Part shown: piece by piece, positions 56,847 to 64,000 of the stretch
Layout of the letters: every line of letters starts with the position of its first letter
How positions within the stretch are numbered: position 1 is the first letter of the stretch
From: Chelativorans salis
GTDB lineage: Bacteria; Pseudomonadota; Alphaproteobacteria; Rhizobiales; Rhizobiaceae
DNA: 64,000 nt
Assembly: GCF_025336525.1 (NCBI RefSeq)
Contig: NZ_JAOCZP010000003.1
Location: 310,001-374,000 of the forward strand
Direction: 5' to 3'
Made by a program: the position numbers and the translations under genes
Notes under the pieces: model-generated
Told to the model about the DNA's origin: nothing
Database searches by the model: none
Seen by the model: the letters and a program-made list of their open reading frames with translations, nothing else

Positions 56847-56922
56847 GCGCCCATCGTCTAGCGGTCTAGGACGCCGCCCTTTCACGGCGGAAACACGGGT
56901 TCGAGTCCCGTTGGGCGTGCCA
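56847..56922 (+). tRNA. tRNA-Glu (anticodon TTC)
   Basis: 76 bases with encoded CCA. Anticodon stem CCGCC/GGCGG (56874-56878, 56886-56890) around the loop CTTTCAC, giving anticodon TTC; T-arm with TTCGAGT; acceptor GCGCCCA against TGGGCGT with a G-U closing pair. The sequence downstream turns phage-like, so this gene is a likely attachment site. Confidence 0.97.
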
Positions 56923-57351: not shown

Positions 57352-57383
57352 AACGAAAAGCCCGCCACCGTGAGGCAGCGGGC
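57352..57383 (-). terminator. Rho-independent terminator of the leftward small operon
   Basis: Read leftward, stem GCCCGC/GCGGGC (57378-57383, 57360-57365) is followed by TTTTCGTT. It lies about 40 bases past the stop of the gene at 57422. Confidence 0.8.
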
Positions 57384-57384
57384 C

Positions 57385-57421: not shown

Positions 57422-57757
57422 CTATTCCTCCTCCATCTCAAGCGAGCTTCCAGCGCAAATGATTCGTGCTTGCGCTGCCCCAATCACCGTCAGTGCATTC
57501 TTCATGTCTTTTTCGACCGACAAGAACTCGTTCATCAACTCATATCCTACGGCTTCGTCCAGGTTCCTAAGCATTTCGATTAGCTCGGGCTTAGATTTGA
57601 ACATCACCTCCGACGCAATCCGAAGAATGGTAAAGGCTCTTGGCGAGAACTCTTTCCAAACCTCCCTCGTTGGCGGCTGCCAGCCTTCGCCCTCGCGCGA
57701 CCATGGTGTGAAATCGAGAGCGGCCGCTTGCTCAACGGTACATTTCTCGGTGCTCAC
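57422..57757 (-). CDS. Phage-type hypothetical protein, 111 aa
   Basis: Soluble, acidic, helical; VEQAAALDFTPWSREGEGW and ELMNEFLSVEKDMKNALTVIG. No family recognised. The start is GTG 57757 with GAGGAGGACGC upstream, overlapping the previous gene's stop by 4 bases (GTGA), so it is translationally coupled to it. Ends before an intrinsic terminator. Confidence 0.6.
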   Translation of the reverse strand: MSTEKCTVEQAAALDFTPWSREGEGWQPPTREVWKEFSPRAFTILRIASEVMFKSKPELIEMLRNLDEAVGYELMNEFLSVEKDMKNALTVIGAAQARIICAGSSLEMEEE

Positions 57758-58041
57758 GATGCGTCCTCCTCTGCGGCACGGACCCGTTCCATGGCCTCCT
57801 GAAGTCTCTTCCCGCCTGGGTCATGGATGGCGTAGAGCTGCCCCTTCGCGTCAGCAAGCCGTTGCAGGGCCACATGGAGTACATGGGACATGGCGTTGCG
57901 GGAGGTGCTGTCTAGCGCCTCCGTGGCCATGAAGGCGGTTTCAAACAGACCCTCGGCTTCCGCCAGGGTGTCGATTGCATTGATAAGGGACGATTTGGCA
58001 GCGGGCATAGCTTCGCCCGCTATAGAAGCTGTTTTTTTCAT
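57754..58041 (-). CDS. Phage-type hypothetical protein, 95 aa
   Basis: Helical protein beginning MKKTASIAGEAMPAAKSSL; INAIDTLAEAEGLFETAFMA and RVRAAEEDAS follow. Conserved family not recognised. ATG 58041 is chosen because it starts the coding-like part; the frame upstream runs through a hairpin leader. First gene of a two-gene leftward unit. Confidence 0.6.
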   Translation of the reverse strand: MKKTASIAGEAMPAAKSSLINAIDTLAEAEGLFETAFMATEALDSTSRNAMSHVLHVALQRLADAKGQLYAIHDPGGKRLQEAMERVRAAEEDAS

Positions 58042-58048
58042 GATACTT

Positions 58049-58123
58049 GTCTCGCTGGTTTGGCTTCTCACAGCCCTTCCGGGATCGGCCCGGAGCCGGG
58101 GGGTGAGAACCTGCCAGCGAGAC
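58049..58123 (-). promoter_or_regulatory. Stem-loop in the leader of the small phage operon
   Basis: Arms 58049-58071 and 58103-58123 are inverted copies sharing GTCTCGCTGG and TTCTCAC with a small internal mismatch; the loop is about 30 bases. It ends eight bases before ATG 58041 and overlaps the region where a ribosome-binding site should be, so it could control translation. GGTTCTCAC and CCAGCGA recur at 58297-58315 near the candidate promoter. Confidence 0.5.
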
Positions 58124-58316
58124 AGGTCGAACGATTTTAAGGGTTTCCCCTCTGGACATAGCGCTCGCCCCCGGCCATATTGGCCGAGTTGGAACGCCCG
58201 CCAAGGCGTTACCGCGCGCACAGGAGCCCGCCAAGGCCCCTAGCGCCTCAGCAGCACCTACGACGCCAATCGAGGTTCTGCTTTATCGCTGGTCCGGGTT
58301 CTCACACCCAGCGAAC

Positions 58317-58602: not shown

Positions 58603-60189
58603 CTAAAGGTCTATATCCCAGCGGATAGTTCTATCCTGGCCAGGGCAGATGGCGCGCACAACTGTCGCGGGCTTCATTTTCAAATAGGACACTGTTGCCC
58701 ATCCCAGTGGTGAAGGCTCAGATTCCCCTCTGATAGCTTCGATCTTGCAATCGTGCTCGGCCAGCGTTGCCGTTACCCTCTGCCCATCAATATCGACTTC
58801 GAAGCCGTCCTCGGTGAACGCGGGCTCAAGATCAGGGGCCAAATGCAGGCTGCTGACGTATTCTCTCGGCACTTCCGACGAAAGACGATCCTCGATCACC
58901 AGCCTTTCACCGGGGCTGTATTCGATCCGCCGATTCTGCCGAAACAGATCGAGCCGCTCCGCCTCGCCAGAGATCACGAAGCGGCCACCTTCGATTTGCG
59001 TCTCTGCCAGAAGGGAACCGGTCAATCGAATACTGCGCCTACCGATTCTATCATCTTCAAGCGCAACAGTGTTGTGCGCCGCTGCGCTGCGGACGTAATC
59101 GCGCATCGCGTCTTGCGCATAGCCATACTTTCCGCTGTCGATGAAGATCCGACGGCCATGTTCAAACAGTTCAAAGCTCAACTCGTCGGCCTGCTTGTGC
59201 TTCCAGGATTGCGCCATCCCTGTGACAAACAGCATGGACGGCCCCTGTGGGTCTTCGGAACGGACGATTGCGTAGCCGGACTTCTCGAAATCTGCCACTG
59301 CAAAGCAGCCACCATCCGGCAAGCACTCTCGCTGTCCACCTTCAAGCCGCTCCGGCAGTTCTGTCCTGGCGCGACCATCGCTGTCACCCACGCTTGGCCA
59401 CCTACCGTCCGGCATAATCAGCCAAGGCTCAACGGTGTCGGCTTTGCGTAAAAGGGCTTCTATTCCTGCATCGGCGAACCTTTCGGGACCTCCGAGACGG
59501 CGGATAACACGCATGGCAAACTGATGATACGCAGGCGAATTCTCCTTATGGACGCCCTGCTCCGTGAACTGGTGAGAGAAAATCCATCGGAACTTCTCGG
59601 CCGCAAACTCCTTGCCATTCGAACATTCCTGAATGTCTGTCGCGGAACATAGGAGATTTAGGCCGAACACCTGAAAGAGCCCATGGTTGCCAGAGCTTAC
59701 AAACTCGTCAACCTGCAGGCGTTTCGCATGCTCGCGCGCCAACTCCACAAGGTCATCGCGATATATGGCACTCAGCGTGCCTTCGCGGATTAGGTCCAGA
59801 AACAGCGCTATTTTCAAGGCACGGATGCCTGTCGGCATATCGTGCCAGGAATACGTAGCTTCATTCGATTGGTGCCAGCGGTGCCAATCGACAGCGATCC
59901 GAGCCGCGTATTCAATGGCGCCGTCCTCGCCGCTAAAATACCGAGCGATGAGCGGGTCCATGATCCGCCACATATGAAGCTGCGATTGCCAGTTCGGGTC
60001 ATTGAAGGGGTCAGCCGCCCAATCGATCGGCAGAGAGTACTCCCACGCTGGCACATCGGATCGGGGCCGATACGTCGATTCATCGCCCTTGACCTGCGAC
60101 AGATATATATCGTCTGGCCCAATCGAATTGGCGAGAGCGGATGCAGATGACAGAATGAGCGCAAGCAGGAGCGTGAAGATATTGGTCAT
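58603..60189 (-). CDS. Exported heparinase II/III-family polysaccharide lyase, phage-borne
   Basis: 528 residues. Signal peptide about 1-21 (FTLLLALILSSASALANS). N-terminal alpha/alpha toroid with SSGNHGLFQVFGLNLL (Asn/His) and ENSPAYHQFAMRVIRRLGG (Tyr), matching the catalytic Asn-His-Tyr layout of heparinase/alginate lyases. The C-terminal beta-sandwich holds KHKQADELSFELFEHGRRIF and AAAHNTVALED, the Heparinase_II_III signature. Substrate unknown: an acidic exopolysaccharide is likely. Same direction and 44 bases after a tail-spike-like gene. Low GC like the phage genes. The ribosome-binding site is weak. A Sec signal argues for a cargo enzyme exported by the lysogen rather than a virion part. 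Confidence 0.8.
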   Translation of the reverse strand: MTNIFTLLLALILSSASALANSIGPDDIYLSQVKGDESTYRPRSDVPAWEYSLPIDWAADPFNDPNWQSQLHMWRIMDPLIARYFSGEDGAIEYAARIAVDWHRWHQSNEATYSWHDMPTGIRALKIALFLDLIREGTLSAIYRDDLVELAREHAKRLQVDEFVSSGNHGLFQVFGLNLLCSATDIQECSNGKEFAAEKFRWIFSHQFTEQGVHKENSPAYHQFAMRVIRRLGGPERFADAGIEALLRKADTVEPWLIMPDGRWPSVGDSDGRARTELPERLEGGQRECLPDGGCFAVADFEKSGYAIVRSEDPQGPSMLFVTGMAQSWKHKQADELSFELFEHGRRIFIDSGKYGYAQDAMRDYVRSAAAHNTVALEDDRIGRRSIRLTGSLLAETQIEGGRFVISGEAERLDLFRQNRRIEYSPGERLVIEDRLSSEVPREYVSSLHLAPDLEPAFTEDGFEVDIDGQRVTATLAEHDCKIEAIRGESEPSPLGWATVSYLKMKPATVVRAICPGQDRTIRWDIDL

Positions 60190-60233
60190 GCCCTAGGGCA
60201 ATAAACCAACCGGCCCCAACTTGTCATGCCTTC

Positions 60234-61790
60234 TTACGCCCCGCCCCACAAAATACCCCGCGCCGCAAGGGTTGCGTTCGCCAATCCGGTGACATCAGCC
60301 GCCGGTATGCCGGAGCCGTGGAGGCGGATAAGCGATCCGTCGAGACAGTTGACGGCGGCATTCGGATAGCTGTGCGTGCCTCCAATGATACTAAGAGAGC
60401 TGCCGTTATCCACCACCGCCATCGATGTTTCAGTGCTGCTTGCGGTCAGATTGGTGCCGGTACATAGGACTTCCGAATTATCCAGAATGTTTATCAGCCG
60501 GTCGCCATCGCCGCCCGACACCGATCCCCCTCGGATCACTATCTTGGCGCCATAGACAGCCGACAGTGCCCGCGCCCCTGTGTTGGTGATGGTTGGGTTT
60601 TCGAGCGCGACCACGCTTCCATCGTCGGCGCGCACGCTACCACTCGTAGACACGGCGTTGGTCGCTTTGATGCGGCTATTGCCCAGCGCAACAAAGGCGG
60701 AGGTGACCGCATCGCATGTCACGCTATCGGCGGTGATCACCGAGTTATTTTCCGCCTGGTAGGCGTTGCCCAGGGAGCCCGTCGCCGTAGAGTCGGTCGC
60801 ATGGATAATGCCGCTGTCAAAGGCCCTAAATCCAGTGACGCCACAGTTATCGGATGACGCCCCGCGAGCATTGACTAAGGCGCAGTTAGTGGCCCTGACC
60901 CCGTGACGAGCCGCGCCATCGGCTATGCCGTTGCGGAAATGGAGTGTTCCTGAAGCGGCGGCCTGTGCACCGTAATAGAGCGAACCACTGACATCTGCAC
61001 CCAGTGCTGAAATGCGCGATGCCCAAGCCAGTATCCCGGAATAAGCCGGCGCCGCCTGTGATGCCTCTTTGAAAAGGCTGTTGTCTGCGAAAATAGTGGA
61101 GCCGGCGTTTGCATAGCATGCCTGCTGAGCGGCACGATAGATGCCGCAACTCGCATGAACGAAGCCGATGGACCCCTGATCTGCAAAATAGCCATTAGTG
61201 CCAAGCCCATTTGCATCGATGAGGCAATTGAGCTGGGGCATGCGGGCATTCACACCCTTGATGATGTCCACGGCGGGGAAGGCCGCATCAAGGCTCACAG
61301 TGGCGTCAACCGCGCTGATGACGAAGTGGCCAAAATCCCCATTCTCAACCAACACACCTGCCGTCAGGGCGTGCCCCGTCTCGATCATTAGAATAATCGT
61401 TGCGCCCTGCTTAACCGGCCTCATGCTCAAAGCATCAATGGCGTCTTGAAGTGTCGGATAATCAGTCGGGATGTTGACGGTGAGATCGACCGTCTCACCC
61501 AAGGCCGCAAGGGCGGTTTCCTTGGTTGCAGATTCGAAGACGGAAATACCCGTGGCGGAGCCGCCAAGTGTTGCCTGAGCATCGGCCTTTGTCTCATCTT
61601 CCAGTAGTGCAAGGCCGGTGGCGCCAAGGGTGGTGGTGCCGGAGGAAAGGGTGTCTAGGTTGGAGTCTGCGTCCTGCTTCGCGGACGGATCGGCCCAATC
61701 CTTGTTTTCTAGGCCCTTCCCGTTAGAACGCCAGCCAAGAACCTTGCCGGCGACATTTCGGGGATACTGCCACTGTTCACGGTCGCCCAT
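60234..61790 (-). CDS. Phage tail-spike/tail-fibre-like protein with beta-helix
   Basis: 518 residues. N-terminal virion-binding-like part (QYPRNVAGKVLGWRSNGKGL), two short repeats typical of tail spikes (GLALLEDETKADAQATLG and ISVFESATKETALAALG, about residues 58-94), then from about 100 on a parallel beta-helix: IPTDYPTLQDAIDAL and many Asn/Ser/Gly-rich turns (SGIIHATDSTATGS, NSRIKATNAVSTSGS). No catalytic motif identified in the helix. AAGGAG seven bases ahead of the ATG. The helix would bind a host surface glycan. Confidence 0.75.
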   Translation of the reverse strand: MGDREQWQYPRNVAGKVLGWRSNGKGLENKDWADPSAKQDADSNLDTLSSGTTTLGATGLALLEDETKADAQATLGGSATGISVFESATKETALAALGETVDLTVNIPTDYPTLQDAIDALSMRPVKQGATIILMIETGHALTAGVLVENGDFGHFVISAVDATVSLDAAFPAVDIIKGVNARMPQLNCLIDANGLGTNGYFADQGSIGFVHASCGIYRAAQQACYANAGSTIFADNSLFKEASQAAPAYSGILAWASRISALGADVSGSLYYGAQAAASGTLHFRNGIADGAARHGVRATNCALVNARGASSDNCGVTGFRAFDSGIIHATDSTATGSLGNAYQAENNSVITADSVTCDAVTSAFVALGNSRIKATNAVSTSGSVRADDGSVVALENPTITNTGARALSAVYGAKIVIRGGSVSGGDGDRLINILDNSEVLCTGTNLTASSTETSMAVVDNGSSLSIIGGTHSYPNAAVNCLDGSLIRLHGSGIPAADVTGLANATLAARGILWGGA

Positions 61791-61887: not shown

Positions 61888-62112
61888 CTATGCCTCGCCT
61901 AAGCGTTTCTTTGTTCCCTGCACCCCGCCGAGTGTCCGTTGCCGCGCCGCTGCCGCCGCTTCATCGTCAGACAGGCGCGTGAGGATGTTGGCCGCCGCAC
62001 CCTGGCGCTGCTGTGCCTGACGACGCTGCTCTTCGGCTGCCGCGAGGGAAGCGTCAGACTTCTGCGGTGGGGCTGGCGCGGGCTTGGGCGTGGGCGGTCT
62101 TGCGATGCACAT
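61888..62112 (-). CDS. Small phage protein, 74 aa
   Basis: Pro/Lys-rich start (CIARPPTPKPAPAPPQKSD), a Gln/Ala-rich helix (AEEQRRQAQQRQGAAANIL) and a C-terminal RTLGG motif. This layout recalls the short proteins that lie near portal genes in podophages. ATG 62112 or 62115 (ATGA overlap with the previous stop). Function unknown. Confidence 0.6.
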   Translation of the reverse strand: MCIARPPTPKPAPAPPQKSDASLAAAEEQRRQAQQRQGAAANILTRLSDDEAAAAARQRTLGGVQGTKKRLGEA

Positions 62113-62540
62113 CATCGCCTCCCTGGTTTTTGCTCGCCCATGGCCTGCGAGAAGAATATCCAGCTCAGGATTCCGGCCTCGTCGTCCCGCTCGCTGTGCA
62201 TGTGCGGGCGCGACTGCCGAGGGGCTGGCCTGTCCTTTTCCGCCTCAGCACGCTCCCGGATCATCGCGCGATCCTGCTCTGCCGCCCGTTCCATCGACGC
62301 CTCAAAGCCGAACGCGTTGGGGTATCTTTGGAAAAACAGGTCGCGCAACCCGCTCTCGACCGCAGTCATAGCTATCTCGACCGCATTGTAGCGGTCCCAC
62401 CAATAGTATTTGTGCCGAGGCGTTGTAACATTCTCTGACGGCTTCTGTTGCGCTATCAGCCGGTCACGGAACGAGCGCCCGGACGGCTCTTCCAGATAAT
62501 CAACAACGCTCAGCTCCTTGCGGCGCGGGAATTTGGGCAT
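62112..62540 (-). CDS. Phage hypothetical protein, 142 aa
   Basis: Charged, Arg/Glu-rich; KYYWWDRYNAVEIAMTAVES and RDLFFQRYPNAFGFEASMERA. No family recognised. ATG 62540 overlaps the previous stop by one base (TGATG), with AAGGA nine bases ahead. Part of the coupled late-type operon. Confidence 0.6.
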   Translation of the reverse strand: MPKFPRRKELSVVDYLEEPSGRSFRDRLIAQQKPSENVTTPRHKYYWWDRYNAVEIAMTAVESGLRDLFFQRYPNAFGFEASMERAAEQDRAMIRERAEAEKDRPAPRQSRPHMHSERDDEAGILSWIFFSQAMGEQKPGRR

Positions 62541-63139
62541 CACGCGGCGTCCTTCTTCTGGACACGTCCGGGAAACAGGCGCTCAAGCGGGGGCATCTTG
62601 CTAGCGACGGAGCCAGCGGGCGTTCCAGAGACCAGCACCCTGTCCATCGTCATGCGCATGCCGCGCGAAGTGTCGGTCTTCATGCGCTGCAATATTTGGC
62701 CGTTCCATGAACCCATTTGCAGGATAGTACGGCAGCCGCCGTTCATGCCTAACGAGCCATATTCAGCGATAAGGGAGCGACCTTGGCTTTCTGCGCGCTG
62801 CATCAGCGTGGCCAGTTTCTCCAAGGTCCTGTCGATTGCCTCGCCGGTAGCGCGAAGGTCATGAACCGCATGTTCCGCCGCAGACCATTTGGCCTCAATG
62901 TCAGCCTGGCGCACGGCCTCAGATGCATCTCGTTCGGCCTGTTCTGCACGAACGGTGGCCGCCTGAATGACCTTTGCGGCAAGCTGGGCGTCTTCCAGCG
63001 CGGCTTCTGCCTTCTGGACCTTTGCCTTTAGAGCAGCGCTGGCCTTGCCGTCAGCAAGAGCCTCGCCATATTCAGCTTGAAGGCGCTCAAGTTCCTCTTG
63101 CGCCGCCAGGACTGCGGCATGTGCTTCCTGAGGTGTCAT
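62540..63139 (-). CDS. Phage coiled-coil protein, 199 aa
   Basis: Long heptad-rich coiled coil from about residue 5 to 100 (AAVLAAQEELERLQAEYGEAL, split in two; VQKAEAALEDAQLAAKVIQ; RAEQAERDASEAVRQADIEA), then a globular end (RSLIAEYGSLGMNGGCRTIL). Could be scaffold- or tail-related; not determinable. ATG 63139 with AAAAGGA nine bases upstream; the frame is open further up but reads as Arg/Ser-rich non-coding. Confidence 0.6.
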   Translation of the reverse strand: MTPQEAHAAVLAAQEELERLQAEYGEALADGKASAALKAKVQKAEAALEDAQLAAKVIQAATVRAEQAERDASEAVRQADIEAKWSAAEHAVHDLRATGEAIDRTLEKLATLMQRAESQGRSLIAEYGSLGMNGGCRTILQMGSWNGQILQRMKTDTSRGMRMTMDRVLVSGTPAGSVASKMPPLERLFPGRVQKKDAA

Positions 63140-63786
63140 GCGAAATATCCTTTTCGTTTCGCAACAGTGATTAGCTTGTCGATAACCTGAGGATTCGCAG
63201 CGAAAGCCGGGTTTTGGTCCAGAAACTCCCGCAAGCCGAATGTCTCGTCCGCTACTCGTAGCGCTGCCGTGGCAGTCGCGCCCATGTCCGGGCCGTATTT
63301 CCTGCGCATGTGCTCTTGAGCGATGATCTCGGCACGTTCCAGCGCCACCGGGTCGGCTTGGGTTTCCAGGGCTGCGGCGTATTGCAGGGAAAGGCCCTCG
63401 ACTTCGACAGCGTTCAACTCGCCGGCAACCGCCCATTCTCGGGCGACGGCTTCAAGCTGCTCGTCAGATTCAGCGCCGGGAATGTCCTTTGCCTTGAGGC
63501 TGCTGAAATCCACCTCCGACGCCTGCGAGATCGGCTTATCTAGGCTTTGCGCCGGCTCATCGCCGCCCACCACGTCAAGTTCGCGCTCAGGGGCTGCTGC
63601 CGGTTCGGTCGACGTGGTGTCACCGGAATACTTCTTTTCGAACAACGCGCTCAGCTGCGCCGACCGTACGCTGTGCTCGGGATGCGCGCGAGAGTTCAAA
63701 GCCTCGTCGTATTGCGCCCGGAAGTCGGTGATTTCGGTGTCTATCGCCGGTGGTGGCGCAGGCACATCAATGATGGTGTCCGTCAT
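63136..63786 (-). CDS. Phage acidic protein, 216 aa, possible scaffold-like
   Basis: Acidic, Pro/Ala/Glu-rich N-terminal half (DVPAPPPAIDTEITDFRAQY, TEPAAAPERELDVVGGDEPA), then a helical C-terminus (LREFLDQNPAFAANPQVIDK). Charge and low complexity suit a phage scaffolding protein, but no signature proves it. GAGGAGATG precedes the ATG. Overlaps the next gene by 4 bases. Confidence 0.6.
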   Translation of the reverse strand: MTDTIIDVPAPPPAIDTEITDFRAQYDEALNSRAHPEHSVRSAQLSALFEKKYSGDTTSTEPAAAPERELDVVGGDEPAQSLDKPISQASEVDFSSLKAKDIPGAESDEQLEAVAREWAVAGELNAVEVEGLSLQYAAALETQADPVALERAEIIAQEHMRRKYGPDMGATATAALRVADETFGLREFLDQNPAFAANPQVIDKLITVAKRKGYFA

Positions 63787-63998
63787 GGGATCATCTCCTC
63801 TACTGTCGGTACGGCCTTCCGCGCATCGCGGATTTGCTCATATCGAGGCACCCAGGCCGACAGGCGGCGGGAACGGCCCTCAGCAGACAGGCGATCACTG
63901 ATGACTGGCGCCCATAGGCTTTTGTGTAGCGGTGAAACGTCCATATGGTCCGCCAGCTCAGCCGCCACCGAACGAGCCGCGTCGTCAAAATCGGCCAT
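63783..63998 (-). CDS. Phage hypothetical protein, at least 71 aa, at the window edge
   Basis: DAARSVAAELADHMDVSPLHK and WVPRYEQIRDARKAVPTVEE; helical. ATG 63998 lies two bases from the edge, so a longer start cannot be excluded. Overlaps the 216-aa gene by 4 bases (ATGA). Function unknown. Confidence 0.5.
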   Translation of the reverse strand: MADFDDAARSVAAELADHMDVSPLHKSLWAPVISDRLSAEGRSRRLSAWVPRYEQIRDARKAVPTVEEMIP

Positions 63999-64000
63999 GT

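Follow-up and report, generated by a model that had tools for sequence, protein, structure and literature searches.

Phage satellites are usually thought to take their tail, and hence their host range, from a helper phage. Published accounts describe several satellite families, including PICI, cfPICI, PICMI and others (PMC11389934), and the use of diverse phage tails by cfPICIs (PMC13345588). They also describe AH14b, a 16.8-kb satellite of Pseudomonas sp. ANT_H14 with an integrase, an AlpA-like protein, a primase and a tail-assembly homologue (PMC4936722), and Streptomyces satellites of the Mulch and Flayer systems, which carry encapsidation genes, the Flayer satellite together with a tail adaptation (PMC10690885). 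A further paper proposes that free depolymerases could act as public goods (PMC10521650). Among the matches listed in searches of the open-access literature, we noticed no description of a satellite with its own spike, of a heparinase-type lyase borne by a phage or satellite, or of a spike paired with such a lyase.

The locus considered here lies in a 64,000-nucleotide stretch of Chelativorans salis DNA (the window; positions 310,001 to 374,000 of contig NZ_JAOCZP010000003.1, which is 736 kb long). A gene for a predicted beta-helix tail spike is followed there by a gene for a probable heparinase II/III-type polysaccharide lyase, and both are carried by a 14.1-kb element integrated in a tRNA-Glu gene. 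We favour, at a probability that we hold to be evenly balanced, a reading in which the two genes form a two-part polysaccharide module of a phage-satellite-like element, the spike binding a polymer and the soluble lyase destroying the same polymer; its support is the anatomy of the pair and its recurrence in other phage loci. The pair consists of the following features.

58603–60189, minus strand: heparinase II/III-type (PL12-like) polysaccharide lyase, 528 amino acids (Pfam, alignment, AlphaFold2 model, PDB fold search)
60130–60189, minus strand: Sec-like signal segment, lyase residues 1–20 (sequence, hydropathy, and pLDDT, the predicted local distance difference test, below 50 at residues 1–20)
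59686–59688, minus strand: codon of putative catalytic Asn168 (alignments)
59527–59529, minus strand: codon of putative catalytic Tyr221 (alignments)
59197–59199, minus strand: codon of putative catalytic His331 (alignments)
60190–60233, minus strand: 44-bp spacer between spike and lyase, holding most of a 13-codon open reading frame (ORF) (sequence)
60234–61790, minus strand: tail-spike protein, 518 amino acids (phage-record matches, AlphaFold2 model, fold searches)
60291–61496, minus strand: beta-helix domain, residues about 99–500, the first two thirds common to other phages (model, profile)
61701–61790, minus strand: N-terminal putative virion anchor, residues 1–30 (likeness to S. meliloti protein P0133)

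A preliminary description of this DNA had placed a lyase with the Asn-His-Tyr layout of its family 44 bases behind a spike gene on the same strand, and both ORFs were found as it claimed, the spike gene upstream and the lyase gene downstream. In Pfam searches the lyase matched PF07940 (E 1.5e-26) and PF16889 (E 4.4e-13), both matches exceeding the curated cut-offs. Its AlphaFold2 model had a mean pLDDT of 88.9, and the top PDB folds were those of heparinase III (5jmd, 4mmi/4mmh and 4fnv), at 15–18% identity. Asn168, Tyr221 and His331 aligned (phmmer, positions counted by hand) with residues 216, 270 and 400 of the Pedobacter HepC chain, which we take to be the catalytic Asn240, Tyr294 and His424 of the full-length numbering (offset 24). 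All three are intact, and they are invariant in 21 aligned lyase proteins and in a separate 7-row alignment. By its Pfam domains, predicted fold and catalytic residues, the protein is probably a lyase of the heparinase II/III (PL12-like) type. HepP of the bacterium Pseudomonas aeruginosa is reportedly also a heparinase-type enzyme (PMC5732420).

The spike, too, was recognised correctly as a beta-helix tail protein, in that its body is predicted to form a beta-helix and its relatives are annotated as tail proteins. In the AlphaFold2 model, a monomer, the helix spans about residues 99–500, mostly with pLDDT above 90. PDB matches at E ≤ 0.001 were the tail of phage Andhra and LKA1 gp49, but also the alginate epimerases AlgE4 and AlgE6; the P22 and Sf6 tailspikes followed at E 0.003–0.01. 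The TM-scores of these matches were modest. Compared with models of viral proteins, the spike model resembled phage tail proteins. The match to the Pfam Beta_helix profile (E 0.0025) fell under its cut-off, but the model and the PDB search point to this fold. When the spike was used in a tblastn search, 9 of 50,697 phage records, under six phage names, gave a match; seven of these are annotated as tail proteins and two as hypothetical. The 30 N-terminal residues, which may be a virion anchor, occur together with part of the beta-helix in Sinorhizobium meliloti P0133, whose database name is pyocin knob domain-containing protein and for which no genomic location was found. Among 394 genomes of the family the anchor was present only in the window's own, and it had no match in phage records or viral contigs. 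No plasmids carrying the spike or the lyase were found.

To follow the pair into other genomes, loci with a lyase relative were collected in a search with a lyase alignment (A1), which gave 88 genome loci, 80 of which were kept, and three viral contigs. The genome loci were taken with flanks of at most 10 kb, shorter where a contig ended, and the ORFs in the stretches obtained were searched with a spike-domain profile (A2, built from 13 proteins). Only two of the 80 genome loci proved to contain the spike domain, each of them a phage locus. In a prophage of Qipengyuania pacifica (L026), a spike-domain protein (41% identity, E 1e-40) is followed by small lysis-type genes, among them one transglycosylase-like and one weakly Rz-like, and then by the lyase (44%), with 2.9 kb between spike and lyase; viral contig L100 is a near-identical stretch, with an integrase after the lyase. 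On a 5-kb contig of Pseudovibrio sp. Ad37 (L028), the spike-domain protein (34%, E 1e-41) and the lyase (39%) are convergent and 79 bp apart, next to a tail protein matching phrog_5616 (E 1.2e-31) and the central-fibre-J family phrog_31; G541 is the same stretch. Viral contig L099 carries a tape measure gene and a tail protein gene (phrog_5616, E 1.3e-127); an 814-aa gene takes the place of the spike, and 78 bp behind it lies a lyase gene (57%). The tail protein before the 814-aa gene is of the same family as that of L028. The four phage-borne lyases examined (window, L099, L026 and L028) share 35–55% identity with each other and retain the catalytic residues, and the spike domain accompanies three of the four, the window being the query. 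Pairing of the same two families in the Qipengyuania and Pseudovibrio phage loci thus answers the earlier question whether such pairs recur.

Other searches added little to this set. A fifth viral contig with a distant lyase relative (L101, 25%) showed no spike domain; its heparinase-like gene (L101:7347-9428) lies behind a 585-aa gene, on a prophage-like contig whose opposite strand bears tail-like genes. In a gut phage contig (MT836252.1, L006:3092-3823) the lyase was matched weakly (24% over 41% of the query). Viral contigs scanned with the lyase, TerL and spike as single sequences gave no match, a final lyase scan of viral contigs gave L099 only, again, and the Qipengyuania-type lyase matched only itself in 298 genomes of that family.

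We then placed the lyase among its relatives in a tree of 85 proteins, in which the window, L099 and L028 copies were labelled as phage; the Qipengyuania copy had been dropped as a duplicate of P0055, so that its position was read by eye, and one row, L015, is a piece of the Brucella lyase. The window protein groups with those of Brucella daejeonensis, P0003, L099, P0002 and P0004 (SH-aLRT 99). Both P0055 and L028 fall outside this group, L028 on a long branch with weak support (81–93). The phage-borne lyases are spread over the tree, save that those of the window and L099 group together. The surroundings of ten of the 80 genome loci, and of the Brucella locus, were read by eye. Four of the ten resembled polysaccharide clusters, as follows.

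Halomonas L019 and Rhizobium L022: wecB-like genes by the lyase homologue
L020: capsule-type ABC transporter by the lyase homologue
L029: glycosyltransferases by the lyase homologue

The other six were the two phage loci and four loci (L021, L024, L025 and L027) with no recognisable polysaccharide neighbours. The family is found in polysaccharide clusters, and the lyase is probably an exopolysaccharide (EPS)-type enzyme that phages acquired more than once. The host itself has a second heparinase-family gene on another contig (L152:9226-10848 in G000:C3; 30% identity to the window lyase), whose neighbours, read by eye, are a UDP-GlcNAc-epimerase-like gene, glycosyltransferases and a sulfotransferase-like gene. 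The closest homologue, at 60%, is from Brucella daejeonensis (L023; G016:C4:127353-129038) and lies 317 bp outside a 36.7-kb prophage bounded by an att repeat at tRNA-Pro. It was perhaps left behind by an earlier element at that tRNA. Its GC content at third codon positions is low for its surroundings. We rejected the view that the host group has this lyase as a core gene, as a search across the order found it in 2 of 397 genomes (E 1e-60), the window's own among them, and a search across the family in 5 of 199 at E 1e-10, again including the window's own and with one other close.

These contexts bear on whether the two genes are neighbours by chance, the element having acquired a lyase gene from an EPS cluster with no functional tie to the spike. 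The preliminary description would have called the pairing coincidental if lyase homologues sat outside phages with the spike absent, and this was half borne out: 78 of the 80 genome loci lack the spike domain, whereas the recurrence of a rare domain speaks otherwise. The polysaccharide-like surroundings of the four loci above fit chance acquisition, as does the fact that most phage loci with the spike domain have no lyase. A domain found in so few of the 50,697 phage records nevertheless recurs together with the lyase, which makes chance hard to uphold; pure coincidence was set aside as the leading reading because the two families recur together in two more phage loci, and we regard it as improbable. 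The spike domain usually occurs without a lyase, yet the pairing is hardly coincidence. Its recurrence in distantly related phage loci suggests that spike and lyase act on the same bacterial coat.

The preliminary description further held that the lyase has a Sec signal peptide and would, as a secreted enzyme, be made by the lysogen or infected cell. The N-terminus of the window copy, MTNIFTLLLALILSSASALA|NS, is Sec-like by hydropathy alone. The Sec pathway of Gram-negative bacteria delivers proteins to the periplasm and not to the cell exterior, so delivery outside the cell does not follow from such a signal. The other three phage-borne lyases (L099, L026, which equals P0055, and L028) have no hydrophobic N-terminus, and neither have the related lyases P0049, P0052, P0058 and P0003. 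Signal segments were scored with a home-made hydropathy measure that depends on the start codon chosen (the first ATG, GTG or TTG, or the start given in the database). The score was at least 1.9 in 35 of the 85 tree proteins, between 1.5 and 1.9 in 8, the Brucella daejeonensis lyase being among these 8 just under the threshold, and below 1.5 in 42, some of which are fragments or have doubtful starts. As Sec export ends in the periplasm and three of the copies lack a signal, secretion by the lysogen does not account for the whole group; release upon lysis would fit better, as the sole route open to signal-bearing and signal-less copies alike.

Between the body of the spike gene and the lyase there is a promoter-like site (60412-60385, minus strand) and there are weak terminator-like hairpins (60272-60255 and 60270-60256, minus strand). 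A better hairpin of this type (57384-57359) follows the last downstream ORF, although it amounts to a consensus match at most. The region held 3 promoter-like sites against a shuffle mean of 1.9, and 6 terminator-like sites against 4.8. Because both counts are at chance level, a single transcript of spike and lyase is plausible. A 13-codon ORF (60186-60227, minus strand) is preceded by a GAAGG motif, and its stop overlaps the lyase start (ATGA); judging from this arrangement, it may couple translation.

On the favoured reading of a matched pair, the spike would ride on a phage particle, perhaps that of a helper, held by its 30 N-terminal residues, and would bind, perhaps also cut, a surface polysaccharide or exopolysaccharide of the host. 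The lyase, a soluble PL12-like protein of its own that is encoded in the same run of genes and presumably expressed late, would cut a uronic-acid-containing chain by beta-elimination and so have a receptor-destroying role. Before lysis it would be periplasmic in the window copy and cytoplasmic in the other phage copies. Freed by lysis, it would strip the same polymer, so that progeny escape the debris and neighbouring cells are opened.

The lyase might instead be lysogenic-conversion cargo, which trims nascent polysaccharide in the periplasm of a quiescent carrier, alters its coat and blocks superinfection, the spike neighbour merely marking a terminal cargo slot of the element. The signal-like segment of the window copy agrees with this, and so do the position of the gene at the att-proximal end, opposite the integrase, the promoter-like site upstream of it (at chance level, as above) and the Brucella daejeonensis copy, which is likewise by an att site and without a spike. 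The copies of L099, L026 and L028 have no signal segment, and conversion leaves the recurring spike domain unexplained. We consider it rather unlikely; it ranks first among the alternatives, before decay of a prophage (discussed below) and then chance.

The element that carries the pair is bounded by exact 47-bp att repeats. Its features are listed below, window-equivalent positions being those beyond the end of the window.

56847–56922, plus strand: tRNA-Glu (TTC), integration site (ARAGORN)
56876–56922: att repeat copy 1, the last 47 bp of tRNA-Glu (exact repeat)
57359–57384, minus strand: intrinsic-terminator-like hairpin ending the minus-strand gene run (11 pairs, 8 of them G-C, with a T-rich tail)
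57422–57757, minus strand: 111-aa ORF downstream of the lyase (weak PHROG match, E 0.0018)
57754–58221, minus strand: 155-aa ORF downstream of the lyase (Pfam and PHROG scans)
61888–62115, minus strand: 75-aa Pro-rich ORF, phage-structural-like by eye
62112–62543, minus strand: 143-aa ORF, no Pfam or PHROG match
62540–63436, minus strand: 298-aa ORF, true start probably internal (weak matches)
63136–63786, minus strand: 216-aa ORF, matched in the window's own genome only, of 199 searched
63783–64000, continuing to window-equivalent 64247, minus strand: 154-aa ORF
window-equivalent 64244–64495, outside the window: 83-aa ORF
window-equivalent 64431–66011, outside the window: TerL (phrog_2, E 1.2e-25)
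window-equivalent 66008–66424, outside the window: 138-aa ORF in the place of TerS
window-equivalent 66698–67741 and 67693–68070 (L002:12699-14071), outside the window: D5 helicase in two frames
window-equivalent 68750–68974, outside the window: helix-turn-helix/AlpA-like protein (AlpA Pfam E 0.011, phrog_66 E 5.7e-06; weak)
window-equivalent 69519–70883, outside the window: integrase (PF00589, E 1e-26)
window-equivalent 70952–70998, beyond the window: att repeat copy 2 (exact 47-bp match)

The gene run has six small ORFs between TerL and the spike, and two or three after the lyase. The traits of a phage satellite are present: a small tRNA-integrated element with an integrase, a weakly matched AlpA-like regulator and a replication gene. 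The latter is frameshifted, its two frames overlapping and matching consecutive parts of the D5_N profile, so that the shift is either real or from sequencing. No match to a portal, capsid or tail tube was obtained in Pfam and PHROG scans of the element's ORFs, which covered all but two minus-strand ORFs (64 and 66 aa) and five on the opposite strand (60–88 aa). A complete prophage was ruled out since these three structures were unrecognised among the scanned ORFs, and the phage surroundings of the preliminary description become those of a satellite-like element. Likewise, a capsid-forming PICI was rejected, as no capsid genes of its own were recognised among the same ORFs. The genome's only portal (PF04860) and capsid (PF05065) genes, the families searched for, sit in a cluster like that of a gene transfer agent (GTA), so no resident helper was found among them. 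This cluster (L165; G000:C13, about 718713-731501) has, by eye, a portal, a capsid, an NlpC/P60-like protein and a 1317-aa last protein; no integrase was seen in it, and it looks like an alphaproteobacterial gene transfer agent.

An element of this kind could also be a decayed prophage, its head and tail genes deleted and the spike and lyase stranded as leftovers. The frameshifted D5 gene, the 216-aa gene matched in its own genome only (63136-63786; 199 genomes) and the unrecognised portal, capsid and tail tube all fit decay. However, no frame is interrupted in the spike, lyase, integrase or TerL genes, and TerL has relatives (40–48% identity) at nine loci, which belong to 8 genomes other than the window's own among the 199 searched. 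Read by eye, these relatives have integrase-like genes nearby and in many cases replication genes as well. Exact att repeats, sought as matches of at least 24 bp within the fetched stretches, bound three of the nine loci, spanning 9.85–16.0 kb, one of them at the same tRNA-Glu:

G011 island: 15.8 kb between att repeats, tRNA-Ser
G192 island: 16.0 kb between att repeats, tRNA-Arg
G032 island: 9.85 kb between att repeats, tRNA-Glu, the window's own site by flanking sequence

Because the relatives of its TerL include such tRNA-integrated islands of 10–16 kb, the window element looks more like a member of a satellite-like family than a lone deletion remnant, and we think decay unlikely. At the same tRNA-Glu site, a genome of the same genus (G167) has other genes up to sfsA (names by eye), and G090, read over 6 kb, has an integrase-like gene (by eye).

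The gene order of the islands, by eye, is integrase, small genes, replication gene, small ORF, TerL and cargo. A set of 47 island proteins, one of them from the window and some from upstream of TerL, was scanned with results kept as tallies rather than per protein; one or two of the proteins matched each of four families (capsid, head protease, tape measure and tail fibre), which places phage structural genes among the cargo. The capsid and protease matches were assigned to island L118 by reading its sequences. Odd cargo is spread over islands L113-L121, as tape-measure, neck, capsid or tail-fibre genes, and no complete structural gene set was seen in the TerL islands. Ten proteins, all from related islands and nine of them from the 47, were also scanned singly. 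The G011 island gave a tail-fibre gene (phrog_12796, E 1.6e-31) and no capsid among its five ORFs downstream of TerL that were scanned in this way; tail genes of this kind may therefore have a regular place in the cargo of these satellites.

Several observations weigh against a matched spike–lyase pair. Besides the 78 genome lyase loci without the spike domain, only one of the 22 viral loci with the spike domain also has the lyase (L132, the same locus as L100; many of the 22 are short contigs and four are repeats by identical scores), as does none of the nine phage records that bear the domain. The 814-aa gene of L099 shows no similarity to the window spike, and the Brucella lyase has no spike beside it. 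A missing signal segment is not specific to phages, given the 42 low-scoring tree proteins; promoter-like and hairpin sequences, though at chance level, lie between the body of the spike gene and the lyase; and the frameshift in D5 is a sign of decay. In favour stand the same spike-domain and lyase families in three divergent elements (window, Qipengyuania and Pseudovibrio) and the host genome's own distant heparinase-family gene in a polysaccharide-type cluster.

The unrecognised head genes, the related islands and the G011 tail-fibre gene together raise a further, tentative reading, to which we give less weight than to the matched pair itself. The element might be a satellite with its own adsorption specificity, packaging with its own terminase, placing its own spike on borrowed helper particles and bringing a matched soluble receptor-destroying lyase; this would be a binding and destroying pair with a logic comparable to that of haemagglutinin and neuraminidase. 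If true, such a satellite would choose its own hosts. A recurring spike–lyase pair would also make it possible to ask directly if a receptor-binding spike is combined in phages with a soluble enzyme that destroys the receptor, and it connects the lyases of bacterial polysaccharide clusters with phage modules.

In comparison with known systems, PICI, cfPICI and AH14b are like the window element in being small and in having an integrase, an AlpA-like regulator, a primase/helicase-type gene and an incomplete structural set. The window element differs from them in carrying TerL, a tail spike and a lyase and, unlike cfPICI, has no recognised capsid; its mobilisation would be by a helper. Its spike shares a long beta-helix with the spikes and appendages of Andhra (tail, 8egr), LKA1 (gp49), P22 and Sf6, and a sequence match with the tail protein of Aeromonas phage Aer_P220, but its putative N-terminal anchor was otherwise found only in the S. 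meliloti protein, and alginate epimerases match its fold too. Its lyase has in common with PL12 heparinase III and other PF07940 and PF16889 lyases (5jmd, 4mmh, 4fnv) the fold, here predicted, and the Asn-Tyr-His set; it differs in its length (528 aa, against about 640–660 in the solved enzymes), in its sequence (the 15–18% identity above) and in being borne by an element. Diffusible phage depolymerases (PMC10521650) resemble the window lyase as read here, in that they are soluble polysaccharide-cutting enzymes freed by phage. Those enzymes are freed from tails, whereas the window lyase is encoded by a separate gene and belongs to a family that is also found in bacterial polysaccharide clusters.

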